Part shown: piece by piece, positions 1-64,000 of the stretch | Position numbering within the stretch: the first letter of the stretch is position 1 | Layout of the letters: each line of letters begins with the position of its first letter | From: Auriscalpium vulgare | Taxonomy: Eukaryota; Basidiomycota; Agaricomycetes; Russulales; Auriscalpiaceae | DNA length: 64,000 bases | Assembly: GCA_019915015.1 (NCBI GenBank) | Contig: JAHBBC010000012.1 | Coordinates: 1,426,001 to 1,490,000, forward strand | Direction: 5' to 3' | Translations under genes and position numbers: made by a program | The notes under the pieces: model-generated | What the model was told of the DNA's origin: nothing | What the model saw: the letters and a program-made list of their open reading frames with translations, nothing else | Databases searched by the model: none

Positions 1-1800
1 AACTTGGAGATTCTTGCTCAATATTTCCTTGAAACAACGACCCTTGCCGACGAAATCTCTTCGTCTCTTCGCCACACCGCCCTCCAGAACCTGTCGGGCT
101 GCGACGCCCAAGCGACCTCCCACCCACAACAAGTCAGCGGCTCCGTGAAGCCCTTTTTCAAAACTTTTCCTTCCCCAAATGGCGACGTTGATGACGCGGT
201 CTCGCCATCGGCGTACCCATGGTTGATGAAGAATTTACACAACCCTTATCCATCCCTCAGGGAGAAGGACGAGATGGCGCAATTGACGGGGCTTCCTGTT
301 GCGTCCGTGGATGCGTGGTTTCGCTCAGTCAGGCATCACATTGGATGGACGTCGCTGTGCCAAACCCATTTCGCAGGATCCCCCTCTGCCACCATCTACG
401 CGGCTCGCCTTGCCTACTTGGATGATGGAGTGGGGTTGTCGGCCGATGTTGTCTTCGACTTCAACATCGTGAAGGTACATGCAGAGACCTTGTACGTCGG
501 TATAGGCCCCGACTCGGATGCTTGTGGCGCCGATGTGGCGGGCGTATATGCCACGGATACGAACCCCTCCCCTCCCCTTCTTGACCAGCACGCGACCCCT
601 CTGGATGTTGACAATGATAACGTGGAAGAGGAAGATACAACGCCTCCCCCACCTATCGCCGGTACGAAAAGGCGTGCGACAGAGGACCCAGCAACCGCTT
701 CAAGTATTGACTCGAGATTGTCAAAACGTACAAGGTACGCACCAGCAGATCGTGTATTCTGCCTCCGCTCAACGTCTTTTAGACTTAGTCCTGCTCCATC
801 TTCGTCCGTTACTTCATCGCCCTGGTCGCCGTCCAACTCTACCTCATTTCAATTCATTGATCCCTGTGCCACCGTCTCGTCAACCTTCTCCCCGGCAATA
901 CCTGCCTTGGCAGATATGCAACTCTCTGCAACGACCATTGATGCCAGTGCAGGTGCTTTCGCGTCTGCGTCACTGGTTTCGGACGTCTCTATTCGTCCAA
1001 CAGAGGCAGCCCAATACAGTCCGACTGTGTTAGGAAAGCGCGCCGCGTCTGATTCGGATCCAGGTCGCCAGGCGAAACGCGTGCATATCCTTCATGGCGT
1101 CGACGAATCCCCCTATCCCTCGTTGCCCATGCCAACGAGCTCTCTGCTAGCTAGTCCTGGCTATCGACCCTCTGCTCCCCTTCCGGATCCAAACCCCGAC
1201 CCCGCGCACGCAACTTTCCTTGCTTTGGACCGCACATCTGGCTACGAGGGTGCGAGCTCATCCCTTTCCGAATTCGCATTCGTGGACAATATTGTGCGCA
1301 CCGAGGATGCCCCACCTGGTACGCTGTTACGCGCTATCCCCGCGTCATTCAAGCTCATCTCTGCTTCAGAGGCGACTAGTCCACACGATACAGCGGTCGG
1401 CGACCCATTGTCACCACTCTCCACCGATCTAGCAGATGAAACAGGACTACGCTCGTTGGACGACTTGTTCCAACTTTCTCCAGACGAATCATTCTTCCCG
1501 CCATATAACGACTTTGTGACCTCGACGGAGGAGATTGATTGGTCTTCCTTTGATGAGTTGATACGCTCTACGTCTCTTTCCTCGGGGTCATCATCACCAT
1601 CACTCTCTGCCTCCAGTGTGGCATCGCCTCTCAGTGACTCACCTTCGCCTTTTGGCGATCCATCCTCTTTCGATTTGTTACTCCGTGAAGAGGGCTCTTG
1701 TGCTCACGACGAACTTACATCCTCCCTCCCTCTCGACGTTGGCGTCTGTGACGCAGAACAGTTTAACCTATGGGCTTCAATTTTTGACACTTTAGCATAA
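1..1800 (+). CDS. HD1-class homeodomain mating-type transcription factor (5' truncated)
   Basis: This is the C-terminal part of a mating-type A (HD1) homeodomain protein. Such proteins pair with an HD2 partner from a compatible mate and switch on dikaryon development. The frame is open from the first base, and its first in-frame ATG lies inside the homeodomain, so the true start is left of the window. About 598 residues are visible. The homeodomain spans roughly bases 190-355: helix 1 is followed by the TALE-like motif HNPYPS, and the recognition helix reads WFRSVRHHIGW. That ending with IGW is typical of HD1 proteins. The Asn expected after WFx is Ser (codon 325-327). Downstream are two basic clusters likely to act as nuclear signals (KRRATED...SKRTR near 667-735 and GKRAAS...RQAKR near 1033-1080) and a long Ser/Pro/acidic C-terminus of activation-domain type. 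No intron is needed in the visible part. The HD2 partner is not in the window. The HD1 call is firm; allele and species are unknown. Confidence 0.87.
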   Translation, partial: NLEILAQYFLETTTLADEISSSLRHTALQNLSGCDAQATSHPQQVSGSVKPFFKTFPSPNGDVDDAVSPSAYPWLMKNLHNPYPSLREKDEMAQLTGLPVASVDAWFRSVRHHIGWTSLCQTHFAGSPSATIYAARLAYLDDGVGLSADVVFDFNIVKVHAETLYVGIGPDSDACGADVAGVYATDTNPSPPLLDQHATPLDVDNDNVEEEDTTPPPPIAGTKRRATEDPATASSIDSRLSKRTRYAPADRVFCLRSTSFRLSPAPSSSVTSSPWSPSNSTSFQFIDPCATVSSTFSPAIPALADMQLSATTIDASAGAFASASLVSDVSIRPTEAAQYSPTVLGKRAASDSDPGRQAKRVHILHGVDESPYPSLPMPTSSLLASPGYRPSAPLPDPNPDPAHATFLALDRTSGYEGASSSLSEFAFVDNIVRTEDAPPGTLLRAIPASFKLISASEATSPHDTAVGDPLSPLSTDLADETGLRSLDDLFQLSPDESFFPPYNDFVTSTEEIDWSSFDELIRSTSLSSGSSSPSLSASSVASPLSDSPSPFGDPSSFDLLLREEGSCAHDELTSSLPLDVGVCDAEQFNLWASIFDTLA

Positions 1801-2662
1801 CTCAAATCACCTATGGCTCGATATCGCTCGCTGTATATGTTTTTTCCCTCCCCTTATCTCTCTCTATATCTCTCTCTCTCCCTCTGTATTTTTCTATCTC
1901 TCTCTCCGTCTGTATTTTCTCTATGCTTATTTGATATGTACCTCGACATGCGTCTCATGTGCCATGTATTGTTACTTCTCTCTCTCTTCTACCAATGCCA
2001 CTTCTGCTCGGTCGCCCTCGTTTCACGCTTGCACGCTTGAAACATGGCTCCATCGAAGGGTTCGGTGCACGTCACGAAGCCGGGGTCAGCCGCATGGCAG
2101 TATGCGGTCGGTGAAGCGCGCCACGAGATCTGACGTCTGCTTTCCTCCATCCAGACCAGATCCAGACACAACGTTATGAGTCGAGTGTCCCGCAACAGAT
2201 GAGGCGACCGTGCCCGGGCGGCAAGTCGATGTGGTTGCGCCAACCTCAGCGCCTACTTATTCGCGACCGTAAGAAGGAGTCTCTAGCCATTTAGGTCACT
2301 GGCCCACTCTTAAGACAACAACTTTCGAGATGACTTTCCGAGTGGTAGTGTCGTCCTCCTCCGAATGCTGCGGCTTCTAACGTTCAGTCTGCGTGTCACA
2401 TTGTCAATATTTGGGAAAACGTGTGAACGTAGAGGTTCCAAGCTCAAGGTACCAGTTGTATGTTCTTCGGACAACAAGTGAGATTCCTTGCCCCCCACAT
2501 TTTCACTCACAGGAGCGGTGCGTATCTGGCCTCGGACCACAGCCCGACTTAAGCCCTATTCATCTATTCCCTGCCTCCTCGTCGACATTGGAGTTCGTGC
2601 TTGCGCTGGGGTTCCACAGGGGCTCTCTCTCGCCATCCTCCATAGATGCACCCCCCCAGTTC
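1801..2662. other. Intergenic, HD1 3' flank
   Basis: This stretch follows the HD1 stop codon. It starts with a pyrimidine-rich tract (about 1845-1920) likely to lie in the 3' UTR or just beyond. I see no convincing gene in the rest, and short open frames here show no domain. Confidence 0.5.
1845..1920 (+). repeat. CT-rich microsatellite
   Basis: An imperfect (CT)n / TCTC tract lies about 45 bases after the HD1 stop. It is simple sequence with no coding signal. Confidence 0.7.
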
Positions 2663-2959
2663 CTAGTCTCCTGCCAACTCTTGAAAAAGCGCTTTGTTTG
2701 GCTCCATGCGGAGGGAGGCTTGGGGCGGCCTCTGCTGGCGGCGGCGGCGGCGGCTCTTTTTTTCGCACCACGTCTCTATTGCAATGTACAACCGAATGGT
2801 GGCGAACACGAAGAGGACGAAGGCCACGGCCCAGAGGAAGGACACCCCAGCAATTGCGAATGCGGTAAGGATCTCGTCATCATCTGCGTCGGTGGTGATG
2901 ATGGGCAAGGGCAGAGGGGTGGCAGACTGAACTGCGCTGGTAGTTGGGATGAGAGACAA
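2663..2959 (-). CDS. Hypothetical small single-pass membrane protein
   Basis: This is a 98-residue open frame. It has a short Ser/Thr-rich N-terminus, an acidic DADDDE stretch, one hydrophobic segment of about 25 residues (starting ILTAFAIAGV and rich in Val/Phe/Leu) and then a strongly basic run KKSRRRRRQQR. The order fits a type I or III single-pass membrane protein with a cytoplasmic basic tail. The basic run is encoded by a GCC/GGC-rich microsatellite near 2738-2760, so composition alone could produce it. No family is recognised and no intron is apparent. It could be a chance frame. It sits between HD1 and transporter A and is absent from the other inter-transporter gaps. Confidence 0.35.
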   Translation of the reverse strand: MSLIPTTSAVQSATPLPLPIITTDADDDEILTAFAIAGVSFLWAVAFVLFVFATIRLYIAIETWCEKKSRRRRRQQRPPQASLRMEPNKALFQELAGD

Positions 2960-3221
2960 TATAGTGATGGGATATGATTGATGGTTCTCAGACGATGCGA
3001 GTGGCGGCGGGATGTAGACTCCTAACCAGGACTGGCAGAACTGGGTTCGAATTGACAGGAGTCACAAGTCACTCTGAGTCTCACCTCTCCGTTGGCGACC
3101 TTGCGCGGAAGACAGTCGTTCACGGCATTCATAGTATAGATCATGTGTATGAGTACACTATCGATGTAGCAGATCCTACCAAATCCTTTGTGGATCTACA
3201 AATATATTAGAGCACGTTAGA

Positions 3222-6200
3222 TCAACTTGACTGGCCGACCAATGTAACATCTCTAGCGTGTTCGTGGCTAGCAGCCATAGCATAGAGAACCTCCTTGTCG
3301 CCGCTCTCGTCAACAAGCGAACGCAAGCGCCCATCGTCGATCTTCAGGAGTTCGCTGGGCCTGCCGAATTCTACGATACGTCCCGCATCCAAGACCATCT
3401 ATTCATCAAACATGAGCGCGCAGTCTTATCAGCAGTGGTTAGGAAGGTGCGCACAATTTTATCAGCATCCATGATTGTCTGCAGACGATGCGCGATGGTG
3501 ATGAGCGTGACGTCGCCCTTGAGCTCGTTGCGCAGAGACGACTGGATGATCGTGTCCGTCTCGTAGTCAATGGCAGAAGTCGCTAACCACAAACGTTATC
3601 AAGTTATGTCCCATATTGTAGTGACGGGTGCATTCACTAACCTTCATCGAGGATGAGCAGCTTGCTCCCGCGCACGATAGCCCGAGCCAAGGCGAGGATC
3701 TGGCGCTGACCAACGGACAGGTTGCCGCCGCCGCTGGCAATCGCGCTGTCGAGCGTGACACGGCTTTCGTCGTCTTCGGCTTGGAGCGAGAAAAGTCCAG
3801 CCGCGCGAAGGGCCGAGTTCAGCGTGGCATCGTCGTACTGATCGAACGGATCGAGATTCTCCCGCAGAGTGCCACTGAGCAGCTCAGGCTGGAGGCGCAG
3901 GTCAGCGTTAAAGATGGTAATTGAGCTAGTGCGATGTCGACTAACCATCTGCGGGATGATGGTGATGCTCGAACGCAAAGCCTCGAGGTTGACGGAGGAA
4001 GTCGGAAGGCCATCGTAATACACCGTGCCTTCCGTAAAGATACAGCGTAGGAGCGCTAGGGTAAGAGAGCTTTTGCCACTTCCTGTGCGACCAACTTCAA
4101 AAACAAAATGAGTGCGGAAGGCAGAAATGTCCGCCACGTGACGTACCAACGCCGACACGTTCGCCCGACTGGATGTGGAAGCTCACGTCGTGGAGAACTT
4201 TGGGACCGTCCTGCGCATTGGTTCGATCATAGAGCTATTGCACGGGTGTGCAGGTGCGTACCTCCGAATAACGCGCAGAGAGCTTCTCGACTCGAAGATC
4301 ACCGCTCGCCGGCCAGTACGCCGGAGGCACCCCATCCTTAGTTGACTTGGGCTCTTGCTCGATCTTGATGTACGCAAGAATACGTTCCAAGCTATAGAAC
4401 CCATCAGCGGTACCCTTTGACGTGGTTCAATGAGTCGTACCTGTTGCCCTGAATCTCAAATTCATTGAGGATCCGGACCCACCAGAGAATCATGCCGCTG
4501 AAGCCGACTATACAAAGACGTTAGCATGACAATGGCGCTGAGTAGCAGAAGGTACGCACCGGCCATAGTGAGAGAGAAGCCGGTATTGGACGGCAAGGCG
4601 GTCGAGCCCTTCGGTCCGTAGATCAACCACGCCCCAAGGGCAGAAGCAAAGACGCCGCCGAGAGTGTCAATGCGGAGACTGACCCATCTGTTCAGGTTGT
4701 AGAACGTGCGCGCGGACCTAGTATAGCGGTCGATGCGTTTGTATGATTCCTCACGGAAGGCAGCCTGTGCCCCGTAGGCACGAATGGAAGCTGCAGTACA
4801 CGCATTCGGGCATCAGACAACGCGCAAGCAATATGAGAGGATCTGCGCACTGAGTCCGGCGATAGCAGCACCGAAGTGGCCGAGAACGGGCGCTTTGGCG
4901 TTGCTCATTTCGCGCTTGACAGCGATCTGAGCCCGCATGTAGATCTGGCCGCACCAGCCTCCAAGCGCGAAGACAAGGACACCGGGGATAAGGAATACGG
5001 GGGTGACCACGACCACGGCGCCCAGCTTGATCAACATGGATATTGACATTGCCATGACCCCAGACAGAGTGTTAGCGACAGGTCCGTCCACTGCGCGGAA
5101 GTGCATCAGTAATAGCAACAGCGTTCGGTTTTTTGGAGGACATACGAGCGCGAATATCTTGTGTGCAGCGAGCGATGACTCGAGACGTCGGTGTAGTATC
5201 AAGCCAACGGAGTGTGGTGCCCAGAACGGACTGCATGAGGCGGCGATGTATGCTCTTCGATGCCCTCAATGAGCCAAATACGTAGACAACGTCCGAGATA
5301 TTGTACGCCGTGATGGCGATACCAGAGAACATACAAAAGACCGCTAGATAGCTGTGCACAACTGGTGAGCATACGCCGCGCAGGGGTTTGGCAACATAGC
5401 TTACTAGGCGATGTTGACTTCGGACGGGTCCGAGACAAGATCATACTGTTCAGCCCAGTATCCCATCCACCAAGTCTGGAGGGAATTAGATGCATCGTAT
5501 AGAATCATACCGCCGAGGAAGAGGATCCAGAAAAGTGTGACGTGCGAGCCGCCCAGGGCCTTAACGAACAGTTTCACTGTGAAGAAATTTGCCCCGTTAG
5601 CCATCACCGCTCCCGTCATGCATGTCGTTGGCCGCACATGATTCCCAGCTGACATGGCCCTCCGCGACTTCCTCAGCAAGAATGAGCTTGCCGTCCGCCT
5701 GCTTGGCTTTTTCATCGGGAGATTCAGCGTCGATCTCCTTGTCGTCGGCCTGAATTTCTTGGAGCTCCTCTTGGAGTTCCTCCTGCAGGATCTCGTCCTC
5801 CGCAAGGGCCTCGGATACAGAGCCGCGGCTGGCGATTGTGCCATCCAGGCTCAAGGCTACGACGTACTCCGCGATAGGGCTTGCCATCGCAACGTTGTGC
5901 GTCTGATATGCATATGAAGACACGGAATAGTGGTCCCAGCAGACGACATGCGTCACTTACCACAAGGAGAATAGTTCTTCCCCGGATGAGATCGCCTTTG
6001 AAGCACTTGTCAACAACCCACCGAGCAGTGTGCACGTCCAGGGCGGCGAGCACCTTCAAGCAATTAAGTCTCAGTACCGACGAGTGAAAACTCCCGAACG
6101 ACTGACATCGTCGAGAAGAATGATCTCAGCAGGCGAGTAGATGGCACGCGCCAGCGTAACACGAGCCTGGATGCACATTACTATGGGCAGATAATAGCAC

Positions 6201-9200
6201 CAGGCATTCATGGACGCGTACCTTTTGGCCGCCACTGAAGAAAAGGGAACATTCAGTGGCCCGCGCAAGTTGCTAGATAGATCTCAATCGTACCTCAAGG
6301 TGAGACCCTTCTCTCCAACCTCCGTCTTGTCACCAGCCTCGAAGAGACTTAGGTCACGTTTGAGACCGCACTGGTGCAAAACTATAGAGTTGTTCAGCAG
6401 GCAGAGGGCCAAATACCATGCATCACCGACCTTTCTCATAGCGGGCCTCATCGTAAGGCGCTCCGAACAGAATGTTGTCCTGCAGTGCTCTGTAAGTGAA
6501 AAATCTCCGGTGTCGGCGCTACGGCTTACCCTGATCGTCTCATTTTGAACCCATGATTCCTGGGCCGCATACGCCACACCGCCCTTCCTGGGAAGGTGGT
6601 ACCATGATCCTGGTCCGAGCGGAACGAAGTGCATCTCCCCTGTTCCACCGTCAAAACGAAGTCGCAGAGACACGCCAGGCATACATACCAAGCAGCGCCA
6701 TCAACAAGGACGTCTTCCCGGAGCCTGTGGGCCCGATGATCAGATTGATCGCGCCGCGCTTGAACTGCAGCTGGTCGTCGATGCGCAGCTTGAACTTTCG
6801 GCTAGACGGAGTAGCCGTGCCGTCAATGGCATCCTCGATCGACCAGGTGAAGCTCGCTTTTTCGAAGCCAATCACATCCTCGTCGAAACGCGAGGCGTCA
6901 GAGAGCAAGGCACGGGCAGCTTCTTCCTCGGGACCGGCAAACTCGTCGAGAAGCTCGGCCTGCACATACTATCAGTAATAAGCACTCGCTGCCTGGTGTC
7001 TATGATGCCGACCTCGTGCAAGAACTCGCCCACGCGATCAAGAGAGACTTTGGCTGCGTGGATTACTTAGGACGCGGAAGGATAACACCAGCAAAGGCCA
7101 CCGACCTTGAATTAACCTGGAACTTTCATAGAAGATCATGTAAAGCTGGCCGCTCATCATATCAAAGACTATGTACCAGTTATAAGCCGACGTTCGCGCG
7201 CAAACACAGACAACGGAAGACGTACTGGCCATGGAGGAGAAGACGGTGGAAGCTACGAGGGATTTCGTTAATTGAGACCGACGATTCTATGCACATATTT
7301 ACGCTTCATTTTTTCCTTCATGATGCCAGTCTAGTCGCAAGTGAGCGTGTGTCAGCGTCCCTCAGTCCGAGTCTTGCATAAACAGAATCATCGACTCACA
7401 TAAACCGTAAAGGTCGCAATCATCTGCATGGACCGCTCGTCAACACACAGCGCAGGGGCAAAGACTGGGATACTTACGACGAATATCGGAATGACATTAC
7501 TGTACAATCATAGTCAGCAAGTGCTGAAAGACAAAATATAACGGCGTAACATACTTCAAGTTGCCGTTCACGAGGTTGAGAAGCTGGCGTTTCCTGATGA
7601 ACTTCAGCTCCACGTCCCGCTTCTCAGCGAGCTTTTCGTCGATCTTGGGCTCCCAACCAAACAGCTTGACCATACGGAGGACGCCCATGGTCTCAGTGAC
7701 CGTTTGCACGCGAGCATCAGTCTGGAATTTTCTTAAACGCAGTGCTCAAGCCCGACAGTGCCAACCCAGACGCACCTTATTCATGGCCTCTTTCTGAACA
7801 GTTTGCATCATCTTGGCGATATATCCAGGGACTGGGAACAGGATAACCATCACGGCCATGCCAACGAATGCACTTCATGGATCATTAGATGTATGGTTTC
7901 TCCTCCCAGCGACCCAACGAAAAACTTACCTCCAGCCCAGGATCGCGTACAAGAACCAGATGCAGAGCGAGATCTGCAATGGCATGTACAGGACTGGGGA
8001 CGTATTAGCTAATTCATCGTGGTTGCATTGCTGTTACCAACTCAAGAATAGGAAATTACGGCCGTCCGTAATGTTGTTCAAATCCGTCGACGCCAAATTA
8101 TTGATTTTGCCGACCAAATTGCTCTCCTTCTTGTTGGCCCCTGGTTCCGGAGTCTTGGCCTCGGAATCTTTCGCCCTTTCCTTGCCCTTGGCAGTCGACG
8201 AATGTGTGCTTGGAGTGCTAGCGCGAACCGTCTCGTCGCTACTCCCGTTCGAGCCCTCAACAGGGTGTTCGGGTTCGACTGTGGTTTCTGATCCCAGCTC
8301 CGGAGAGCTGGTCGCGCTCCGGCTGTCTGGGGTGCTCGCTGTGCTCGCCTCGCTCTTGGCCGTCTCAGCCTTCATACGGATGCGCAGCGCATGTTCGAAG
8401 ACGAGCTGCGTGACGATGCCTTCAATGCGGACGAGCATGCCAGTCTGAGTCCGTCCACGTGAGAACGAGAAGAGGGGCGTGGATCTACTGTCCTCACCCC
8501 GATGAAGATGTACCACTGCCAGGCAAGCGATCCAACCAACGGTCCGAGAAGCAGGCAGGAAATCCAAACCCATGGGCGCACCACGGCGCCTTCGCCATGG
8601 GTCTCAAGATAGCTGGGAACCAAGTGAGAACTAGCCGGCTTGAATAAGCTGCGGGACTCACGCAAGCAGACGATTTATACCAACAGGGCCGAAAAAACCG
8701 GTGAGAACCTGTGACATCAGCTCAGAATGGATTATCAAAGTGACGTAGATCAGGTTAACACACCTTTACGCAGAGTAGGAAGGAAAGCGCGATATATTCG
8801 CGCGCTGAGTTTCGTCAGCTAAGTTCACCATCCTGATATCTGCGGGCTTACAGAACACCTTCATGAAGCTGAAGAACAGATGCCGTCTAGGACTTCCCGA
8901 GAAGACGTCCAAGTGCTGCACACCGGCGTTATTATTGATGAGATCTCTCAATTTTAGTGGGCGCTCACCTTAAAACTTCTTTGCACAAGATTCTTCGCAT
9001 GATCATAGTCTGCGATTGGCGGTAGTTGGTCGTGCGAAAGGTGGGGCACACGGTTGGCTAGAAAAATGATGGGGTCCAGGAAGGTGTAGAGCGCCAACGA
9101 GAGTATGGGGGCCGTTTGCTCTGCATTCGGTACAGGGGAGGGTTCCTATATTATGAGTTAGTTGTTGTATTAGCCGCCAAGAATCCCATCATACCTTGGG

Positions 9201-9982
9201 GTCAAGAGGGATATATTTCCGAGGAATAGTGAGCGGGATCAGGATGGACGCGATGCCGAGCATAGAGATCCTCGCCCAAAGCAAGGGACCCTCGTGCTGA
9301 TCGAGTGGGGCAAGGGTGAAAGTCGCCAACGGCCACAGATCCCGGTATGCGTACACCGCAAACGCAGAAAGCAGGACGATGGTGAGGTGCCATGCAGCCG
9401 TCGTGGCGCGTTTGTACGCTGCAGCCACAGACAACAATGCCAAGAAGAAGGCATAGAGCTGAAAAGGGCAATACGATCAAACCCACGAGCGCGAAGTAGG
9501 TTGCATCAGACTGACATATGTGATTGCTAGGATGAGATCGATCCATTCGCGTTCGGTGTAGCCATCTTTTGCGCGCTCGAAGCTGGCGACCTGGAGCCCG
9601 AGGAGGGTGACGACAGAAAGGAGTCGCAGAGAGTTGAGAATAAAGATAGTGTTGCCCCCAGACGTCTTGATATGTGCCTTGACCTCAGACACGAACCCCG
9701 TCCTCGTTGCGTTGGCGTCGGACTCGTCGAGCTCTTCATTCAGGCAGACCGCGAGTGGTCCATGGGAGAACAGAAGCCCAATCGCCCATACCAGAGCGGA
9801 GACGGCTGCCACGTACGCAGGTATCACAAAAGGGTGCAGCCAGATGCTGCGTACGTTAGCTGAGGGTGAACACGCGTCAAAATAGCATGGCAGAAGACGT
9901 ACCCGTCACTCTGGCGGATGCTGTAGAGCGCTGTGGAGAAGGCAGAACGCCCCGCGTCCAAGACGACTTGAGTGTCGTCCAT
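3222..9982 (-). CDS. ABCC (MRP-type) full-length ABC transporter, copy A
   Basis: This is a many-exon gene for a full-length ABCC transporter, a family that exports organic anions, conjugates or drugs across the plasma or vacuolar membrane. The start is ATG at 9982 (MDDTQVVL) and the stop is TGA at 3222-3224. Order along the protein: an N-terminal TMD0 of about five helices (9980-9190); TMD1 (9100-7400) with a Ser/Thr/acidic and Lys-rich insert before [11 protein letters not shown]1 with Walker A GPTGSGKT (about 6711-6745), signature SGGQ split by an intron (near 6225) and Walker B ILLDDV; a linker with [13 protein letters not shown]2 (5650-4500); NBD2 with Walker [10 protein letters not shown] (4068-4092), signature LSVGQRQ (about 3698-3718), Walker B LLILDE and H-loop IAHR. 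All catalytic motifs are present. The intron after exon 1 appears to use an acceptor shifted 3' because an in-frame TAA follows the ancestral one. Substrate is unknown. It is the proximal member of a three-gene array. Confidence 0.88.
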
Positions 9983-10497
9983 GGTTGAAGTTGAACCCTG
10001 ACGACAAAAAATTCGTTGTGGGAGCTCAGCGCTCAGACTCATGATTGCGCCGGTGCCGAAGCCTGTACCTGGAATTTGTTTCACTAACCGTGTCGTGAGC
10101 ATATTCAATCGCCTTCCGGACTTCTTCATCAGTCTGATAAAGCTTGAACGTTTGAATGCCTAGCGCAGTGAGCCGGCGAGTTCGACGAGGACCGTCACTC
10201 TGCCGTCACTACTGGGACTGACAGGCCGGCGCTTGCATCATGTGATCGCGTCCGAGTCAGCCTTGGCAGTGGCGCCTCCGGGCCGAGTCCTCCCCCAACT
10301 CTTGTCCAATGCTCAGGGAGTCCGTCCTGCGTCCGCCGGTCTTGCCCTCGCCGTACTCTAGGCTCGTGCGTCCCCCGTATCGTCCCATACACCATGGCAA
10401 ATCATGACCCACGCCCCGGGTCGTCCTGCGGCGTTCAGACCTCACTCCGATCCTGGCATTGCCAGTGAAGGCGGCCGATGGACACCCTCCCGACCAG
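9983..10497. promoter_or_regulatory. Upstream region of transporter A
   Basis: This 5' flank of copy A begins with sequence shared with the flank of copy B (the stretch containing GGTGCCGAAGCCTGTACCTG near 10055), so the proximal promoter was duplicated with the genes. Beyond about 10,150 the two flanks diverge. No TATA element is clear. Confidence 0.4.
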
Positions 10498-10800
10498 CTG
10501 GCGTTGACGCCAGCATGCTCCTCTACAAATGAGTGTCAAGGCCGCCATTGACGAGCTCCTGGGGCAGAGTTCGAGGGCCTTTCAGGCCGAACTTGCTCCG
10601 GAGAACTGGTCCCATGTCCGTACGTACCGTACCCTGTGTGCAGCTGTGTCTCTGCCTGCATATGTCCAATGTCAACAGGTCTGGTCGGGATCTTTGTTGC
10701 CACCAGATGCAAAGGGGGTTTTGCGTCAAGGGTTCAGCGCCGTAAAGGCAAAAGGTATTCGAAGCATAGATCATGTACGAGTACTAGCCATTGATCTAAC
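10480..10800 (+). pseudogene. Duplicated 5' gene fragment between transporters A and B
   Basis: An ATG at 10529 opens a frame starting MSVKAAIDELLGQ, followed after about 30 codons by a GTACGT donor-like site. The same sequence recurs at 18,116. The frame then runs without break into the 3' UTR and reverse strand of the transporter, which is not credible as a single protein. I read it as the first exon and upstream region of an unrelated gene captured in the repeat unit. The parent gene is not recognised. A perfect 7-2-7 inverted repeat (CTGGCGT-TG-ACGCCAG, 10498-10513) lies just upstream. Confidence 0.4.
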
Positions 10801-10854
10801 AGATCCTACCACATCCTGTATAGATTATCTACAAATATATCAGAGCACATCAGA

Positions 10855-33173: not shown

Positions 33174-33181
33174 CTATTTAT
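33174..33181 (-). promoter_or_regulatory. TATA box of F-box-like copy 1
   Basis: The minus-strand sequence ATAAATAG lies about 150 bp upstream of the ATG. It is conserved at the same spacing in the paralogue, as is the stretch between it and the ATG. Confidence 0.5.
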
Positions 33182-51559: not shown

Positions 51560-51899
51560 GACAGGCTCTGTGCCCCAGGGTGCCGCGTATCCTGGACTTC
51601 TATCAGTTTCCATCTATTCCCCCGAGCCTTGCAGTTACTTCACTTTCACCGGGCGTGCACTTCGTCGACGAGAGACGTATTGTTTTTTTTTGTGCAAGGA
51701 GCACGTAGCAACGTAGGATCTATAGGCCAGCTTGTTCTGACGGGTGCCTGGGGTACTATTGTAATCTATTTGTCCCACCCCAATTCCACCGCCTGAAATA
51801 GGTGACGAGATGTAGCCTCGGCGCGTAAACCCGCGTTCGCTTCTTCGCTCCGTCCATCAGCCTCTGCGGCCCCTGCCTCGCTCTTTCCTCACCACAGTC

Positions 51900-54042
51900 A
51901 TGCAGGCGCCGCCTTTCGAGTCCGCCGCTGACAAAAAGAGCCACATATGTCCTCCATCTAATGCGACGCACCCTAGAGATCGCTGGGAGTCGCTGTTCGT
52001 GTACTCATTCATGTGCAAGTATACACGACTACCAGGGAAGGTAGAGGGTTTGGACTCGCCAATGGAGTACGTGGCACGCTCCATGCGGCCCTCGCGTGTA
52101 CTAACCTCGTTCACCTCCCGCAGTTTCGAGGACGCACTCCTCACACATGAGCCGGGGCATGTCATGACGCAGATCCTCACGCGTTTCGTGCTCAACTTGA
52201 GGCCGCAAGCGCGTAATGTGAGGTGAGCAGCTTTCAGGTGTCCTTGATTTCGCGCCGGGACAGTGAGGTAACCAGGTGCGCCCCGTAGCTCTGATCAAAT
52301 ATCGAGCACGGTCGTCGCTGTTCTCGGGGACTGCTTCAAGACTTCGGAGAGATCCGTGTTCTGGGACGAGGATCTGAGGGCGAACGTGGATCCATTTCAG
52401 GGGTTAGACGGTGGATTCTTTGCTGCAAGTTGGGACCTCAAGGTACGCGTCTTGCCGGTACACTGACCTTCACGTATGCTCATTACCCGTTGCACTCGTT
52501 TAGCTCCGTGTTCTGCGACAGTTAGTGGAGATGCAGCTCAGTCACAGCACTGAGATCAAGACACTCATTGATCGCGCCTGGGGAGTCTCTCACAATAAGC
52601 ACAAGAAAAAGGAGGTCGGCGATGAGCCCATCGTGGACCCCACCGACCCGCATAGTCGGGAAAGCCTCCAGTTCTCCCCTTTGGGTCAGGACATCTTGAA
52701 AAAACGCTACTGGGTTGTCGATGGTCCGTGCGCTCATTCCTCACTATTTGTCTATATTTGCGTTGATCCTGACGTCCCCCGTGCTCTACTTTATTTCCGA
52801 CAACACGGCGTCTGCCGCACTCGTATCTTATCGCAAATGTCCACTCTCAACTGCACTGCTCGAACCATAGACTCACCGCGTGTGTATCTGTCGACAAATC
52901 CTTGGAAGATCACCGCTACATTCAAAGCTGTCTCGTCTTCACGGGAAGAATATATGGCGCTGGTCGAGAAGTTGAAGGAGTCGGCTCCTCCGCCTCCGAA
53001 ATCTGGCGTCAAAAAGGTCAAGCCCGAAATTGCCCACATCAAACTTCTCGCTACGCTTGAGAGTCGGATAGAAGACATCGACAGAGAATTAGCGGTGAGT
53101 TTATCTCATTTTTCGAACCTCTGGGAACGTGTGTAATCAGATTATCTTTGGACTCGCTCGTGCTTCATTTATGACCACTCCTGTACTCACGCACCTCTCA
53201 TAGCGGATTCAAAAGGCACGCAAAAAGATTCACCAGCGCCACCTGGCGATGGCACAAGCAGAGATTAGACAGACCCGGACGAGACGCCAGACACGTCGAC
53301 CGGACTATGTCTATTACGACGGCGCCGATAGCGAGGTACGTGCAGCTGTGTTTCCACGGTCCTCAGGGTGGATGCCTTATAACGCTCTTAGAACGAAAAG
53401 GACGACGAGTATCACGATCAGGAAGACGATACAGGCTACTTGGATGAGGAAGTGGACTTTGTGAACACGCGGTCGGATTCTGCCTCTGGGTCGACGGATC
53501 GACGGGCGGCAGCGGAGAATGGTCGCCGCCGCTCTACCAGAACAGCAGTTGTCAATGGCAACAACAAGCGTGCGGCAGCCGAAGAGCCCTGGACTCAGTG
53601 GCGAGGGGAGCGGCGATCACGGCGGCTAGGTGCACCGCCAGAAACACAGCTGGATGAGCCGCTGGATGAGCCGCTGGACGAGCCGCTGGACGAACCGCCT
53701 CCGAAGCGCGCACGCACAGAGGATAGCGCAAGCGTCATTTCTGGGTTTGACGGTGCGAGCGTCGATATGCCGGAGGAGAAGGTGCTGCCCGTGAGGAGTT
53801 TGGGAGCCGCCGCGGTTAAAGCCACCGAAGTCGCCATGGAACAGGTGGCAGGGCGCAAGAAGAGCAAATTCTGGTATTATGCCGTCGAGCCTATCCCAGC
53901 ACCTCTGGAGGTGGGGGGCGACACCAAACTTCCCCCTCCCCGTGCTGCAGGTCCCGCGGGAAGCGATGTTACCTCTATCGATTCTGCCAGGGCGCCTGCT
54001 CTAGAGGGCAGCTTATCACCTGCGCCGAGCATGGAGTCGTGA
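51900..54042 (+). CDS. RSF1/CECR2-like (DDT-WHIM type) nuclear protein
   Basis: This gene of about seven exons runs from ATG 51900 (MQAPPFESAADKK) to TGA 54040-54042. The N-terminal helical block (WESLFVYSFMCKYTRLPG, then FEDALLTHEPGHVMTQILTR) resembles a DDT-type domain. It is followed by LRVLRQLVEMQLSHSTEIK and LQFSPLGQDILKKRYWVVD, which match the order of the RSF1/CECR2 family, partners of ISWI remodellers. Next come a charged region with RRQTRRPDYVYYD, an acidic stretch and a low-complexity tail. In place of a PHD finger or bromodomain, the C-terminus is disordered with LDEP repeats and KRART. The family assignment is by pattern and moderate. Confidence 0.6.
53649..53699 (+). repeat. Coding 12-bp minisatellite (LDEP)n
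   Basis: Four tandem 12-base units encode LDEP four times inside the RSF1-like gene. The last unit diverges at one codon position. Confidence 0.8.
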
Positions 54043-54488
54043 TTTCAGCACCTTGGATCTCTTTTCCTCACTTTCTTTACTCCTTAGATTGATCACTCTT
54101 CATTTGGCATTTTCTTGAGCTATTGCATCTCTCACACATATCGCATCAGTTGCCTACTTATTTGATTTCTGCATTTTTCAATGGCATTCTACTTATCTGC
54201 AGTCAAAGTGTCACCTATGTAGTGTGGATCAAGAGCGGAAGCGACTTGAGTGAACTCAGCGAAGCGCTCTGCTGATGGGCAGGCCAGGCAGGTCCAGAGG
54301 AGTCGAGCTCTGGTCGAGCTGGTCGCTCACCCGGGGGCGAATTTCCCTGCAACAGATATCGGCGCGTTGAGCGTGTCAGAGCGTTGGGGATCCGAGAAAG
54401 GAAATCGATGCTTGGAAGTCGAAATTAGTGACTGCTCATGAGCTGATGCGTGTTCGCTCTCTTACTCCCCACCCTCATCTCCGACTTC
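54043..54488. other. Intergenic, MIP upstream region
   Basis: T-rich 3' flank of the preceding gene followed by the MIP promoter region. No gene or clear TATA box is seen. Confidence 0.5.
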
Positions 54489-56952
54489 ATGCTCGCGCGC
54501 AATGCGAGGTCCACTCTCTCCAGCACAGCTCGCAGTGTGTCCAGATGTCGCCGCTATGTCTCCAAGCCCCGACTCTTGGCCACGGCAGCTACAGCGACCC
54601 GCCCATCCCCCACCTCTGCTGAAACCGCCGACCTCGTGTCCTTCTTCGACTACCCTGCGACGCGACATTCAATCTCCTCGTCTGGTCTATTTGGCCAGCC
54701 ATCCCTGACAACGCCCTCCTCGTTCCATGACTTGACCCACGCGACTATTATGCACGCACACCTCCTTACAGAGCGTATCGTCCGGGCACGGCATAACCGG
54801 GACGAGCTCCTGAAGGTTGTGAAAAACCTGGACCGGCTGAGCGACATGCTCTGCTCTGTCATTGACCTTGCGGAGCTGGTCCGGAACTCCCATCCTGACG
54901 GAGATTGGGTGGATGCCGCTAACGAAGCATATGAGCAATTATGTGAATATATGAATGTATTAAACACCCACGTCGGACTTTACGAGGTGCGTATTCTCAT
55001 TTCGCACCCTGTGCTATTCACTGACGTATTTTGTCCCGTACAGGTCCTTAGAGATGTATTATCCGACCCATCCATCACGAGCACACTCAGCCGGGAAGCG
55101 CACCAGACTGCGCTCATATTTTGGAGAGACTTTGAAAAGTCCGGCATCAACCTACCCCCTCATCAACGAGACCGCTTTGTATCCCTATCCTCCGAGATCC
55201 TTGTCCTCGGCCGTCATTTCCTCTCGGAAGCCAACAACCCCAAACCTCCCGCCGTCATCAAGCCAGCCGAACTCCGAGGCCTCAAGGATGAGGGTCTAGG
55301 CACGCGACTGAAGCTGCAATCTCGGTTTACAGGACGTGACCTGCAAATATACCCTGGTTCCCATCAAGCGCAGATGATCATGCGCTCTGCGCCTGAGGAA
55401 GAGCCTCGCCGGAAGGTCTACATGGCTGCCAACTCGAGCACCCCCGAACAAATAGAGGTGCTCGAGGCACTTCTTCGTGCCCGTGGACAGCTGGCTTCCT
55501 TAGTTGGCTCTCCGAGCTTCGCCCACATGGCGTTAGGCGACAAGATGGCAAAATCTCCCGGTGAGCACGCGCGTGCGACCTCACCTTTGTCGCTCGACCT
55601 GACGCCCTATACAGAAAACGTGAATCAATTCCTGGAGACCTTGATGGACCACACTCGTCCTCACGCGCTGAAAGCGCTCAGTGCGTTAAGCGCACGAAAG
55701 CAGGCCCACATCGGCTCTCCGACTCTTCCGGTCATCCAAGCATGGGACAGAGACTTCTATTGCCCACCAGACCCTCCCGCTCCGCCGATACCCCTCCCTC
55801 CTTTGACTGTCGGCACATGCTTCAGAGCGCTGTCGCGCCTATTCGAACACATGTACGGAATCTCACTCCGTGCAGCTGATGTCCAACCGGGAGAAGTCTG
55901 GCATCCGGACGTACGCAAATTGGAAGTTGTCGACGAGGACGATGGGCTGGTGGGTTGGATCTACACGGACTTGTTCGCGCGACGCCACAAAGCGAGCGGG
56001 GCAGCACATTACACGGTGCGATGTTCCCGGCGCACAGACGACGACGACGAGGCGAACGATCTCCAGGTGGAAACCGAGGAAGGACAGAAGCTTCTCAAGA
56101 TATCCCGGAATTTTGCGTCAGCTACTCGACGTCGAACAGGGAATGGGGAGGCACAGCTCCCCGTTGTTGTGCTTCTTACGGATTTCACCCGGGCTCCCAT
56201 GTCGCCAAACGGTCCACCTGTTCTCCAGTGGTCCGAGGTGACAACTCTCTTTCATGAGATGGGACACGCTATGCACTGTGCGTTGTACGTTGCCTCCGTC
56301 GAACGCCCTTCAACTGACAATGTACTTGACAGCTATGATAGGACGAACGGACTACCAGAACGTCTCTGGCACACGCTGCGCGACTGACTTCGTCGAACTG
56401 CCGTCCATCCTCATGGAGCACTTCCTTACATCGCCGACCGTCCTAGCCCTGTTCGGGTCTGGAGACAAGACTTCACCCCAAGTTGGCAATCACCATGAAG
56501 ACCCGTGTCGGAACATCGACACATACGGTCAGATCCTCATGGCGGCTTTGGATCAGACTTACCACTCAACGGCTGCCATGGATTCTGACTTTGACTCGAC
56601 ATCCACACTTTCGCGATTGTCGTCATCTAGGGGGCTCATCCCCTACGCTGATGGAACATCGTGGCAAACACAATTTGGCCATCTCTTTGGTTATGGCGCA
56701 ACCTATTATTCTTATCTCTTCGATCGTGCTATCGCCTCGCGTGTCTGGAAGTCATCGTTCGCGCAGGATCCTCTGCGTAGAAATGCAGGGGAGAGGTTCA
56801 AGCACGAGGTCCTGCGACACGGAGGCGGCGAGGATCCTTGGGGGATGCTAGGGTCCCTCCTGGGTATTTCGGACCTTGGCAGAGGGGACAAAGAAGCCAT
56901 GCGGGAAGTTGGCCGATGGCGAATAGAAGATGTGTCCACTGAACGACACTAG
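54489..56952 (+). CDS. OCT1: Mitochondrial intermediate peptidase (MIP)
   Basis: MIP is an M3-family zinc metallopeptidase that removes an octapeptide from imported mitochondrial precursors. It is the classical neighbour of mushroom HD mating genes. The first ATG in frame after the upstream stop region is at 54489 ([12 protein letters not shown]), giving an Arg/Ser-rich presequence. Introns: one after VGLYE (near 54,985-55,044), one within the zinc-site region. The zinc motif is FHEMGHAMH; a GTGCGT donor directly after it splices to [20 protein letters not shown] (near 56,277-56,333). Downstream are the family features [12 protein letters not shown] and [17 protein letters not shown] lies at 56950-56952. 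About 790 residues, the usual length, and apparently intact. Confidence 0.95.
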
Positions 56953-57089
56953 GTAGCGACGCGAACAAATCTTATTGTGATTTACACCCTCGACATACAA
57001 GGGGGTGCATGTCATTTTGGCCAGTCTCGGAAGATCCGGATGCTCTTATAGACCGCGAAAAATGACATGGCTGATGTCCGATCTGAGGG

Positions 57090-57356
57090 CAGACACCGAC
57101 TTCGTCGTGACTCGACGTCCAGGCTGTCCGGGTTCACCGCATCGAGAGGAAGTCGGAGTCGTTCTTTTCGAAACACAGATCAGCCATCTCTTTGACTACA
57201 GCGCGACATACTACTCCTACCTGTTTGACCGGGCAGGACCCCAAGGTCTGGCGCACGATATTTGTCCAGGAACCTCTTGACAGGGCAGTAGGCAACAAGT
57301 TCAAGTTGACTATTCTGCGGCATGGCGGGGGCAAGGATCCTTGGGAGATGTTATAA
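57090..57356 (+). pseudogene. Frameshifted relic of the MIP 3' end
   Basis: This is a degenerate partial copy of the end of the neighbouring MIP gene. In one frame it reads [20 protein letters not shown], matching [21 protein letters not shown]. After a net two-base deletion near 57,237-57,245 the match continues in another frame: KVW, then FVQEPLDRAVG and ILRHGGGKDPWEML, ending at TAA. The 5' edge is weakly matched (the TDFV codons near 57,098). No zinc motif is present. It cannot encode an active peptidase. Its place directly before the inverted transporter suggests a duplication or rearrangement scar. Confidence 0.8.
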
Positions 57357-57946: not shown

Positions 57947-60900
57947 ATGGACGATACTCAAGTCGTCTTAAACGCGGGGCATTCTGCCTTCTCCACAGCG
58001 CTCCACTACGTTCGCCAGAGCAACGCGTAAGTTTTCTGTTCCGTGTCCTGCTATTTTAGACGCGTGTTCACCGTTAGCTACCGCAGCATCTGGCTCCACC
58101 CTTTTGTGATCCCTGCGTATGTGGCAGCTGCCTCCGCCCTGGCATGGGTGATTGGGCTTCTAGTCTCCCATGGACCACTCGCGGCCCGTTTGTCCACCCC
58201 CAATGAGGAGTCCGACGAGTCCGACGCGAGGGCGGGGTTGGTGTCTGAGGTCAAGGCGCATATCGAGAAGTTAGGCGGCAAGACTATCTTCGTTTTCAAG
58301 TTTCTGCGACTGCTGTCTGTCGTCGCCCTCCTGGGGCTCCAGGTTGCCAGCTCTGAGCACGCAAAAGATGGCTACTCTAAACGCGAATGGATTGATCTCA
58401 TCCTAACAATCACATACGTGAGTCTGATACAACCTCATTCCCGCTCACGACTCTAATCGTACTGCCCTGTTCAGCTCTACGCGTCCTTCTTGGCGTTGTT
58501 GTCGGTCGCTTCAGCGTACAAGCGCGCCACAACGGCTGCACGGCACCTCACCATCGTCTTGCTTTCTGCGTTTGCGGTGTACGCATACCGGGATCTGTGG
58601 CCCTTGGCGACTTTCACCCTTGCCCCACTCGATCAGCACGAGGGTCCCTTGCTTTGGGCGAGGATCGCCGTGCTCGGCATCGCGTCCATCCTGATCCCAC
58701 TCACTATTCCTCGGAAATATATCCCTCATGACCCCAAGGTATGATGGGATTTCTGTTGACTAATGCAACAACTAACGTCAACATATAGGAACCGTCCCCT
58801 GTACCGAATGCAGAGCAAACGGCCCCCATACTTTCGATGGCGCTCTACACCTTCCTGGACCCCATCATCTTCCTAGCGAATCGTGTGCCCCACCTTTCGC
58901 ACGACCAACTACCACCTATCGCAGACTATGATCATGCGAAGAATCTTGTGCAAAGAAGTTTCAAGGTGAGTGCCCAACTATGTTCAATTGATACATATCA
59001 TTATCGTCGCCTGTGCGCAGCACTTGGATGTCTTCTCAGGAAGTCCCAAGCGGCATCTGTTCTTCGGCTTCATGAAGGTGTTCTGTAAGCGCGCACATAT
59101 CAGGATGGTGAATCTCACTGACGAGACGCAGCGCGCGAGTATATCGCCCTTACCTTCCTTATCAGCTTGAAGGTGGGTGTCGGGTGTCAACCTCTATTAG
59201 AATCCATTTTGAGCTGATGTCGCAGGCTGTCACCGGATTTTTTGGCCCTCTTGGGATCAATCGTCTGCTTGCGTGCGTGCCGCAGTTTAATTGACGCGCT
59301 TAGTTCTGACTGATTACAGCTATCTCGAGACCCATGGCGAAGGTGCCGTGGTACGCCCATGGGTCTGGATCTCCTGCCTGTTGCTCGGGCCTTTGGTTGG
59401 AACGGTCACCCTGCAGTGGTACATCTTCATTGGGGTGGGTACAGCAGATCCATACCCCTCTTCTACTTCTCACGTGCACGGACTCAGACTGGCATCCTCG
59501 TCCGCGTTGAAGGCATCATCACGCAACTCGTCTTCGAGCATGCGCTGCGCATCCGCATGAAGGCAGAGACGGCCAATGGCGGGACGAGCACAGTGAGCAC
59601 CCCGGATGACCGGAGCATGACCAGTTCTCCCGAGCTAGAATCAGAAAACACAGCCGAACCAGGACACCCAATTGAGGAGGGCTCGAACGGCAGCAGCGAT
59701 GAAACCGTGCACGCTAGCACTCCAAGCACTCACACTTCGACTGCCAAAGGCAAGGGAATAGCGAGAGACTCCGAGGCGAAGACTCCGGAACCAGGGGCCA
59801 ACAAAAAGGAGAGCAATTTGGTCGGCAAAATCAATAATTTGGTGTCCACGGATTTGAATAACATCACGGACGGCCGTAATTTCCTCTTCTTGAGTTGGTA
59901 ACAGCATGCCAATCATGACGAATCCACCTGACGCGTCCTCACAGTTCTGTACATGCCGCTCCAGCTCGCGCTCTGCATCTGGTTCTTGTACGCTATTTTG
60001 GGCTGGAGGTAAGGTTGTTGGTGGGTCGCTGCGAGGAGAAATCATCTAATGACCCATAAAGTGCATTCGTCGGCATGGCAGTGATGATCGCTCTGTTCCC
60101 GCTCCCTGGATATGTTTCCAAGGTGATTCAGACAGTTCAAAAAGAGACAATGAAAAAGGTGCGTCTGCGCTGGCACTGTCGGGCTTGAGCACTCCGTTGA
60201 AGAAAATTCCAGACCGATGCTCGCGTGCAAGCAGTCACTGAGACCATGGGTGTCCTCCGTATGATCAAGCTATTTGGCTGGGAGCCCAAGATCGACGACA
60301 AGGTCGCTGAGAAGCGAGACTTGGAACTGAAGTTCATTAAGAAGCGCCAGCTTCTCAATCTCCTCAACGGCGACTTGAAGCATGTTATGCCCTCGTATTT
60401 CGTCTTTCAACGGTTTCTGACTGTGATTGCACAGTTATGTCATTCCCATCTTCGTCGTAAGTGATCCAGCCTTTGCTATCGCGCTGTCTGTTAATAAGTG
60501 GTCCTTGCAGATGATCGCGACCTTCACAGTTTATGTGAGTCCATGACTTTGCGTATGTCAAATTGAGGGACGCTAACATCCGACTAGACTGGCATCATGA
60601 AACAGAGCATGAAGCGTAGATAATTTTTTACCGCCTTATCAAATCAGTCTCAATTGACGAAATTCCCCGTAGCTTCAACCGTCTTCTCCTCTATGGCTGG
60701 TGCGTCCGCCGTTGTCGCTGTCTTTGAGTACCTACGTCGGCTCAGACTTAGTTCGCAGTCTTTGATCTCATGAGGGACCAGCTTCACGGTATTTTCTACA
60801 TGATTCCGACGCTCATTCAGGGTGAGTGGATTTTGCCGGCGCTAGTCTTTCCGCATCTTAACTAGTCCACGCAGCCAAGGTTTCTCTTGATCGTGTGGAC

Positions 60901-63900
60901 GAATTCTTGCACGAGGTTGGCATTTACACGAGGTATCGAGTGTTGATTACTGATAGTGTCTGTAGACCGAGCTTCTCGACGAGTTTGCCGGTCCCAAGGA
61001 AGACAGTGCTCGCGCCCTGCTCACTGACGCTTCGCGTTTTGACGAGGACGTGATCGGCTTCGAGAATGCAAGCTTCACGTGGTCGACCGAGGACGCCAGT
61101 GACGGCGCCGCTACTCCCTCTAGCCGCAAGTTCACGCTCCGCATCGATGACCAGCTGCAGTTCAAGCGCGGTGCGATCAATCTGATCATTGGGCCCACAG
61201 GCTCAGGGAAGACTTCCTTATTGATGGCACTGCTTGGTATGTATGCCTAGCGTGTCTCTGAAATTTTGTTTTGACGGTGAAACAGGGGAGATGCACTTCG
61301 TTCCCCTCGGACCAGGATCGTGGTACCATCTTCCCAGGAAGGGCGGTGTGGCGTATGCGGCCCAGGAGTCGTGGGTTCAGAATGAGACGATCAGGGTAAG
61401 CCGTAGTCACGCCGACACCGGAGATTTCTACTTACAGAGCACTGCAGGACAACATTCTGTTCGGAGCGCCTTACGATGAGGTTCGCTATGAGAAAGGTTG
61501 GTGATGAATTGTGGCGTCTGCCACTCACCCGCTGAAGAGCTTCATAAGTTGTACACCAGTGTGGTCTCAAGCGTGACCTGAGCCTTTTCGAGGCTGGTGA
61601 CAAGACGGAGGTTGGAGAAAAGGGTCTCACCTTAAGGTTCGATTTGGAGCCTATCTAGCGATGGCGTGTCACTGAATGTTCCCCTCCTTTCAGTGGCGGT
61701 CAGAAGGTACGCGCTCACGAATGGCCGGTGTTATCGTCTTCTCATAGCCATCTGCCTACAGGCTCGTGTTACACTGGCGCGCGCCATTTACTCGTCTGCT
61801 GAGATCATTCTTCTCGACGATGTAAGTCCTTCGGCAGGTCGCTTTCGCCGGCACTGACCATTCCACTGCGTGAAGGTGCTGGCGGCCCTGGACGTCCACA
61901 CTGCTCGGTGGATCGTTGACAAGTGCTTCCAAGGTGATCTGATCCGCGGGAGGACTGTCATCCTTGTGGTAAGCGAAGCGTGCTGTCCGATCACTGGCAC
62001 GCTTCCTGACATGCATCTAGACGCACAACGTCGCAATGGCGAGCCCGATCGCGGAATACGTGGTGTCCTTGGGCCTGGATGGCACCATTGCCAGCCGTGG
62101 CTCTATATCCGAGGCCCTTGCGAAGGACGAGATCCTCCAGGAGGAGCTCCAAGAGGAGCTCCAAGAAATTCAGGCCGACGACAAGGAGATCGACGCTGAA
62201 TCTCTCGATGAGAAAGCCAAGCAAGCGGACGGCAAGCTCGTTCTTGCTGAGGAAGTCGCGGAGGGCCATGTCAGCTGGGACTCATGTGCGGGCAACTCCA
62301 TGCTTGACTGGGGCGGTAGCGGCTAACGGGGCATATCTCTTCACAGTGAAACTGTTTTTCAAGGCCCTGGGCGGCTCGCACGTCGCACTATTCTGGATTG
62401 TCTTTCTCGGCGGTATGATCCTATGCGATGGAGCTATGTCTGCCCAGACTTGGTGGATGGGATACTGGGCCGAACAGTACGATCTTGTCACGGACCCGTC
62501 CGAAGTCAACATCGCCTAGTAAGCTATCCTACCATTCCAGCAGCGGCGGATATGCTGACCAATTATGACAAGCTATCTTGCTATCTTCTGCCTGCTCTGC
62601 GCTATCGGCATCACGGTGTATACGATTGGGACCGCTGTCTACGTATTTGGCGCATTGAGGGCGTTGAAGAGCATACATCGCCGCCTCATGCAGTCAGTTC
62701 TGGGTACCACCCTGCGCTGGCTTGATACCACCCCGACGTCCCGAGTCATTGCTCGCTGCACGCAAGATATCCGCGCTCGTATGTCCTCACAATTCCAAAC
62801 GCTATTGCTATCACTCACAAAGTTCCGCACAGTCGACGGCCCTGTCGCTGACGCCCTGTGCGGGGTCGTGGAAATCTCATTGGCCATGATGATCAAGCTG
62901 GGCGCCGTGGTCTTGCTCACCCCCGTATTCCTTATACCCGGCGTCCTTGCCTTCGCGCTTGGAGGCTGGTGCGGCCAGATCTACATGCGGGCTCAGATCG
63001 CCGTCAAGCGCGAGCAGAGCAACGCCCGTGCGCCCGTTCTCGGCCACTTTGGTGCTGCTATCGCCGGACTCAGTACGCCAATCCTTCCATGATGCTTGCG
63101 CGTTGTCTGATGCTCGTACGGCTGCAGCTTCCATCCGTGCCTACGGTGCACAGGCTGCCTTCCGCCAGGAGTCATACAAGCGTATCGATCGCTACACCAG
63201 GGCTGCGCGCATGTTCTGGAACTTGAACAGATGGGTCAGTCTCCGCATTGACATTCTCGGCGGCGTCTTTGCTTCTGCCCTTGGGGCGTGGTTGATCTAT
63301 GGACCGGAGGGCTCGACCGCCCTTCCGTCCAATACTGGCTTCTCCCTCAATATGGCCGGTGCGTGCCTTCTTTCGCACCGCGCCATTCGCGTGCTGACGT
63401 CTGTGTATAGTCGGCTTCAGCGGCATGATTCTCTGGTGGGTCCGGATGCTCAATAACTTTGAGGTTCAGGGCAACAGGTACGACTCACTGAAACACGTGA
63501 ATGGGTAGCGCTCATTGCTTTATTTAGTTTGGAACGCATTCTTGCGTACATGAAGATCGAGCAGGAGCCCAAGTCGACTACGGATGGGGTGCCTCCGGCG
63601 TACTGGCCGGCGAGCGGTGACCTTCGCGTCGAGAAGCTCTCTGCGCGCTATTCCGAGGTATGCAGCTACCTTCACGTGGAACTGGGCCCTCACTAAATTA
63701 CAAGACAGGACGGGCCCAAGGTTCTCCACGACGTGAGCTTTCACATTCAGTCCGGTGAGCGCGTCGGCGTTGGTACGTCACGTGGTGCACATTTCCCGCC
63801 TTTCGCCCTAATTTTTTCGAAGTTGGTCGCACCGGAAGTGGGAAAAGCACTCTTACCCTGTCGCTCCTGCGCGGTATCTTCACGGAAGGAACGGTGTACT

Positions 63901-64000
63901 ACGATGGCATCCCGACTTCCTCCGTCAACCTCGAGGCTTTGCGATCGAGCATCACCATCATCCCGCAGATGGTTAGTCGACATCGCGCTAGCTCAATGAC
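57947..64000 (+). CDS. ABCC (MRP-type) ABC transporter, copy D, inverted and 3' truncated by the window
   Basis: This is the fourth member of the transporter family, opposite in orientation to A-C and about 33 kb from the array. The start is ATG 57947 ([11 protein letters not shown]); exon 1 is 57947-58026 and exon 2 58078-58417. TMD0 helices occupy 58,080-58,740. TMD1 follows with the Ser/Thr/Lys-rich insert and LVGKINNL (about 59,815). NBD1 has Walker A GPTGSGKT (about 61,190-61,215), signature SGGQ near 61,690 and Walker B ILLDDV. Next are the [10 protein letters not shown] linker, TMD2 (62,340-63,450) and NBD2 Walker A GRTGSGKS near 63,830. The window ends just after the Q-loop (IIPQM). 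The short-exon intron uses a GC donor at 60380-60381, as in copy B. No disabling change was seen. Confidence 0.88.

Follow-up and report, generated by a model that had tools for sequence, protein, structure and literature searches.

In this MAT-A (mating-type A) region, the gene for mitochondrial intermediate peptidase (MIP) starts 52.7 kb from the end of the homeodomain gene HD1, and we put the probability at roughly 0.55 that MIP was displaced by an expansion of ABCC transporter genes followed by one old inversion, the present layout being a relic and not a switch. The window, the whole stretch of 64,000 nucleotides under analysis, corresponds to C12:1426001-1490000 (contig 12), in an assembly that was scanned over 51.6 Mb and 96 contigs. 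It had been predicted from the letters alone that HD1 sits at the left edge with MIP at 54.5 kb, about 52 kb away, and that the block between is bracketed by ABCC copies on opposite strands (A-C minus, D plus); both the distance between gene ends and the coordinates and strands of the four copies bear this out.

Gene models were generated with a purpose-written codon-and-splice gene finder run over C12:1356001-1560000 (Table 1). The finder does not check for stops in intron-split codons, and to this we attribute the one stop present in the MIP model and the one in the 28.3-30.9 kb model. Eleven gene models lie between HD1 and MIP. While the bracketing by ABCC copies holds, the interval is not made of transporters only: besides copies A-C it contains two unnamed genes, a weakly F-box-like pair, the glycine cleavage P-protein gene (GCVP, also GLYDH), a PPR-repeat gene, a DUF1751 gene and another unnamed gene, and these other genes make up half of it.

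Table 1. Features of the window and its left flank, with positions in the window and on contig 12 (C12)
Feature	Window	C12	Strand	Basis or remark
I/LWEQ protein, left of window		1376706-1380618		Domain match
RPB2, left of window		1401194-1405200		Domain match
ABC1-kinase-like gene, left of window		1405540-1409210		Domain match
Possible GLGEN, left of window		1409675-1413430		Weak glycosyltransferase-8 exon match (PF01501), 13.3 bits, below cut-off 24.3
HD1, mating-type homeodomain gene	1-1800	1425809-1427797	+	663-codon ORF; PF05920 and PF12731 (Mating_N)
ABCC copy A	3124-9982		-	Model and DNA similarity; pairs with A. vulgare P0123
Exchange (gene conversion) tract, B side	10538-11827		.	88-100% per 100 columns to C side
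ABCC copy B	10855-17608		-	Model and DNA similarity
Exchange (gene conversion) tract, C side	18125-19420		.	Partner of 10538-11827
ABCC copy C	18381-25249		-	Model and DNA similarity; outside the A-B-D group in the tree
Gene model	26048-28119		-	No Pfam match in exons searched
Gene model, one stop inside	28319-30918		+	No Pfam match in two stretches searched
Weakly F-box-like gene, tandem pair member 1	31903-33023		-	PF12937 14.7 bits, below cut-off 24.3
Tandem pair member 2	34336-35576		-	About 83% DNA identity to member 1; no Pfam match of its own
GCVP/GLYDH, glycine cleavage P-protein	36938-40679		+	PF02347
PPR-repeat protein	43518-45770		+	Gene model and domain match
DUF1751 membrane protein	49489-50799		-	Weak exon match, 21.6 bits against cut-off 22
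Gene model, family not clear	51019-54042		+	Gene model
MIP, mitochondrial intermediate peptidase	Model 54489-57356; ORF 54447-56387		+	PF01432, 182 bits
ABCC copy D	57947-64000, cut by window end (gene ends at about 64.7 kb)	1483944-1490718	+	Pairs with A. vulgare P0122

The region is the MAT-A (HD) locus of an Auriscalpium-like fungus of the Russulales. The start of the HD1 ORF lies 192 bases outside the left edge of the window, and the ORF reaches position 1800 with its stop codon. Against cut-offs of 24 and 21.4 bits, its product scores 40.7 bits for PF05920 (Homeobox_KN) and 21.7 bits for Mating_N; the sole protein match at E <= 0.001 comes from Auriscalpium vulgare, with 77% identity over 100%. 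Helix 3 of homeodomains usually carries an Asn in a WFxN-type motif. Here the helix reads WFRSVRHHIGW, and WFRSVMRDIGW in A. vulgare, with the Asn absent from both. No adjoining HD2 was found: minus-strand ORFs in C12:1423502-1425687 had no Pfam match, WFxN-type motif or coding support. HD2 could be degenerate or, by analogy with Hericium, may lie farther away. Tandem homeodomain genes are present at C12:1509922-1512502, about 27 kb right of MIP, and also on contig C66; they read WFQNKRQ and WFQNRRQ, and we take them not to be MAT HD2; it is a guess that this pair equals the gene called HD2 in Hericium.

MIP lies on the same strand as HD1, and its product is most similar to A. vulgare MIP (93% identity over 93% of the query), followed by that of Artomyces pyxidatus at 72%. 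In Volvariella, the genes named as flanking MAT-A include GLYDH and GLGEN (PMC4938666). Among such flanks, GLYDH/GCVP and MIP are clear in our region and GLGEN is a weak match only; HD1 together with GLYDH and the possible GLGEN identifies the setting as MAT-A. The placement of MIP immediately beside HD1, a usual MAT-A trait that is not strictly defining, is absent. Partial copies of the GCVP start and the part upstream of it occur left of the window, between the possible GLGEN and HD1, at C12:1418904-1419633 (81% to window 36726-37513) and C12:1422856-1423046 (73% to window 36389-36565), both in direct orientation. Elsewhere in the assembly, a cluster of STE3 receptor genes at C30:227361-284291 has equal-scoring copies at C76:19403-39621, and the two are likely the two MAT-B haplotypes; STE3 matches fell on C30, C76, C79 and C1, with none on C12 among the 40 matches listed.

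Pairwise DNA identity among ABCC copies A-D is 82-85%, far above chance. Their models are stop-free throughout, each with short missing or extra pieces in the alignment that we regard as gene-finder errors, and the models of A and D overrun the gene; from their sequences, all four look like intact transporters. A Pfam scan covering the C-terminal 953 residues of model C gave two PF00005 (ABC_tran) stretches and one PF00664 (ABC_membrane) stretch, and the A. vulgare relatives P0122 and P0123 each have two of both. The 60 solved relatives listed for P0122 are of subfamily C, with ABCC2 first and MRP1, YCF1, SUR, CFTR and others following. As judged from the scanned end of C and the A. vulgare counterparts, the family belongs to the ABCC (multidrug-resistance-associated) subfamily. 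Beyond these four, a fifth relative maps to C33:277093-283912, and C14 carries a more distant one.

The copies can be paired with individual A. vulgare proteins. In a quick tree of 32 proteins, SH-aLRT support was 100 for each of three pairings: D and P0122, A and P0123, and the copy on C33 and P0124. D plus P0122 was sister to a group of B and A plus P0123, with support 99 for the whole, and C fell outside. The contigs bearing P0122 and the A. vulgare MIP both measure 79,071 bp and those bearing P0123 and the A. vulgare HD1 both measure 398,997 bp, and from equal size we take each pair to be one contig. No counterpart of C was present among the A. vulgare matches listed. At the 184 diagnostic columns where P0122 and P0123 differ, D has the P0122 state at 137, the P0123 state at 24 (many of these near its N-terminus) and neither at 7, while A has the P0123 state at 146, the P0122 state at 12 and neither at 5, the rest being gaps in both cases. 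Across 12 alignment windows of 150 columns, D is nearer to P0122 than to A, B or C in 12/12, and A is nearer to P0123 than to D in 12/12. A crossover of D with either A or C since the species split would be expected to disrupt this pattern, and none that swapped their ends is seen; short exchanges may have occurred and would be compatible with the data.

The longest exact runs shared by the copies are 169 bp for B-C, 162 for A-B, 98 for A-C, 80 for A-D, 65 for C-D and 59 for B-D. In a control with 200 shuffles for each of the six pairs, medians were 38-44 bp and the longest runs 66-80 bp; the A-D run of 80 bp exceeds its own shuffle maximum of 70, and the B-D and C-D runs are within theirs. 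The longest A-D run and the longest A-C run share one location, towards the 3′ side of the gene. Between D and the inverted copies A-C, no exact run longer than 80 bp was found. The clearest recent exchange instead joins the direct neighbours B and C. Along some 1.3 kb, twelve of thirteen 100-column steps are 94-100% identical and the remaining one is at 88%; towards the gene the tract ends sharply, and identity drops to 68-89%.

ABCC genes also accompany MIP elsewhere. We counted by hand the 34 species named in both of the best-120 listings (for MIP and for ABCC), taking equal size to mean the same contig; Collybia nuda, whose MIP row gave no contig, was left out, and the rows for Trametes versicolor and Dichomitus squalens may come from different strains. 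An ABCC gene lies on the presumed MIP contig in 7/34 species (A. vulgare, Artomyces, Lactarius indigo, Plicaturopsis, Punctularia, Wolfiporia and Somion) and not in the other 27. Among the matches listed, Artomyces has at least four ABCC genes on that contig and at least four on another, and L. indigo at least two. With the exception of A. vulgare and Artomyces, the shared contigs (5/7) exceed 3 Mb, so that in these linkage is shown at the level of the chromosome only.

A past inversion is the simplest account of the observed ABCC orientations. In a first step, the ABCC family, which is linked to the MIP contig in some other species, would have expanded between HD1 and MIP; in a second, a single inversion with breakpoints on the MIP side of C and beyond D would have carried the MIP-D segment to the far end, either after or during the expansion of the array. 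We infer these breakpoints, the event and its order from observed gene content, strands, paralogy and A. vulgare grouping. When the segment that begins near 25.3 kb and closes with D is reversed in silico, A-B-C-D become co-oriented and MIP falls on the minus strand, 30.8 kb from HD1 behind the array. In Agaricus bisporus, mip1 is downstream of HD1 on the opposite strand (PMC8305134), and the reversal would give a MIP facing HD1 as there, yet 31 kb off. That residual separation counts against an inversion, as the array must explain the remaining 31 kb. The comparison with A. vulgare is no proof of it, since the D-MIP and A-HD1 adjacencies hold both before and after such an event. Hericium rajendrae, also of the Russulales (PMC10608310), counts on both sides: the consecutive numbers of HD1 (g5598) and mip (g5599) speak for the account, and the gene called HD2, at g5621, speaks against it, as that region is rearranged as well. 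The A-D run above its shuffles, the 24/184 columns of D with the P0123 state, the missing C counterpart among listed A. vulgare matches and the 27/34 species whose MIP and ABCC contigs differ in size weigh against the inversion. Finally, the spacer after C (25249-26048) has no similarity to the flanks of D or to the ABCC spacers, and thus no footprint of a breakpoint was found.

A possible but less probable alternative does without an inversion: MIP kept its strand, and insertion or transposition brought ABCC copies and further genes into the stretch that separates it from HD1. Serpula S7.9 provides a precedent, with 18 kb including a gypsy element between mip and HD1 (PMC3564976); the ABCC genes on presumed MIP contigs in 7/34 species make an expansion around MIP plausible, and the GCVP relic at C12:1418904-1419633 indicates that pieces are copied here. 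Moreover, the inversion account also requires an inserted array, and the reversed MIP would still be 30.8 kb away. Insertion alone, however, leaves unexplained why D is opposite to A-C and, if the Agaricus orientation is ancestral, why MIP is on the strand of HD1, and half of the interval consists of ordinary genes, including GCVP, a known MAT-A neighbour.

For the orientation of the block, the smaller contigs of the assembly are uninformative. A second MAT-A haplotype was not found in the assembly: HD1 DNA (window 1-3000) and MIP ORF DNA gave one full match each, and the other 12 matches of the HD1 search were short or weak. When C66 (70,000 of its 72,985 bases) was compared with C12:1356001-1560000, it matched only from 1497618 on, at 98-99.8%; of C78 (43,961 bases), the 4,000 bases read match C12 rightwards of 1497576 and in 1536312-1538218, and 84 bases are shared with 1495163-1495246. 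Together the two match C12:1497576-1551719 at 98-99.8%, and their left sides differ from C12 from nearly the same point. Both are likely pieces of the second haplotype; they provide no test of the orientation of the MIP-D block. On its left side C66 is 99% identical, over 5254-10000, to C31:457734-462460. Its stretches 15841-22706 and 28083-33414 are repeated elements, probably mobile and young; near-identical copies of parts of them were scored at 31 and 37 further places.

The original prediction went further and proposed that crossovers between D and A-C flip the block repeatedly, so that both orientations segregate and MAT-A linkage varies. Several observations are in keeping with this: the copies are longer than 6.8 kb, inverted and about 33 kb apart, the family does exchange sequence (the B-C tract), the A-D run beats the longest of its 200 shuffles, and C66 and C78, similar to C12 right of 1497.6 kb, have no MIP match. 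A pair of inverted repeats remains inverted after a crossover between its members; the orientation of D is therefore neither a product nor a sign of such a flip. Repeats of an inversion switch would be near-identical or mosaic, and those found here are 82-85% identical, share no run longer than 80 bp in any inverted pair and keep D and A faithful to their A. vulgare counterparts in 12/12 windows. The recent exchange is between B and C, HD1 and MIP DNA each have a single full match, and C66 and C78 carry repeated elements near 1497.6 kb that C12 lacks there. Recurrent flipping is therefore not supported, and we consider it improbable. Just as little weight is given to the idea that an ABCC family linked to MIP since early Agaricomycetes seeded repeated MAT-A rearrangement in Auriscalpiaceae, with an unassembled second haplotype in which the MIP-D block would be reversed, suppressing recombination around a lone HD1 without a neighbouring HD2.

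A misjoin of C12 between C and D at the repeated ABCC copies is very improbable: C66 and C78 are haplotig-like, and the assembly has many repeated elements that are nearly identical to one another, but the ABCC copies differ by 15-18% and reads separate them easily, GCVP lies inside the block, and A. vulgare independently has ABCC genes on its presumed HD1 and MIP contigs with matching grouping.

The proposed displacement of MIP by ABCC expansion and one old inversion can be set beside known systems, and the case joins a known class of MAT-A loci with a displaced MIP. In Flammulina velutipes matA, MIP likewise lies 73 kb from an HD1/HD2 pair, with inversion of two 70-kb fragments inferred (PMC3140503); there, another HD2 has stayed beside MIP, in an HD locus divided into two parts, whereas our region gave a single HD1 and no HD gene adjoining MIP. 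MIP is similarly displaced from the HD genes in Lentinula edodes and Serpula lacrymans, by at least 47 kb and 20 kb, respectively (PMC8686365, PMC3564976), although the cause in Serpula S7.9 is the insert described above and the interval here holds genes and an ABCC array. The 140-kb MAT inversion of A. bisporus var. burnettii also has a breakpoint beside the HD genes and takes mip1 with it (PMC8305134), but in that system the HD genes and mip1 move together and orientation differs between both nuclei of a single strain; in the present region, MIP appears to have moved relative to HD1, and only one orientation is seen. The matA of H. rajendrae resembles ours in having glgen, HD1 and mip within one region and differs in that the gene number of mip directly follows that of HD1, with no mention of an ABCC array in the sections of that report on the locus (PMC10608310). 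In the literature searched on Auriscalpium mating type and Russulales MAT synteny, we found no prior report of such a layout.

The few mushrooms whose MIP, the usual MAT-A marker, lies away from the HD genes gain with this locus an example from the Russulales. An old inversion can be told from an active one by how the bracketing copies group with their sister-species counterparts and by where recent exchange tracts lie, not by the orientation of the repeats. For the Auriscalpiaceae, mating-type markers based on MIP may mislead.
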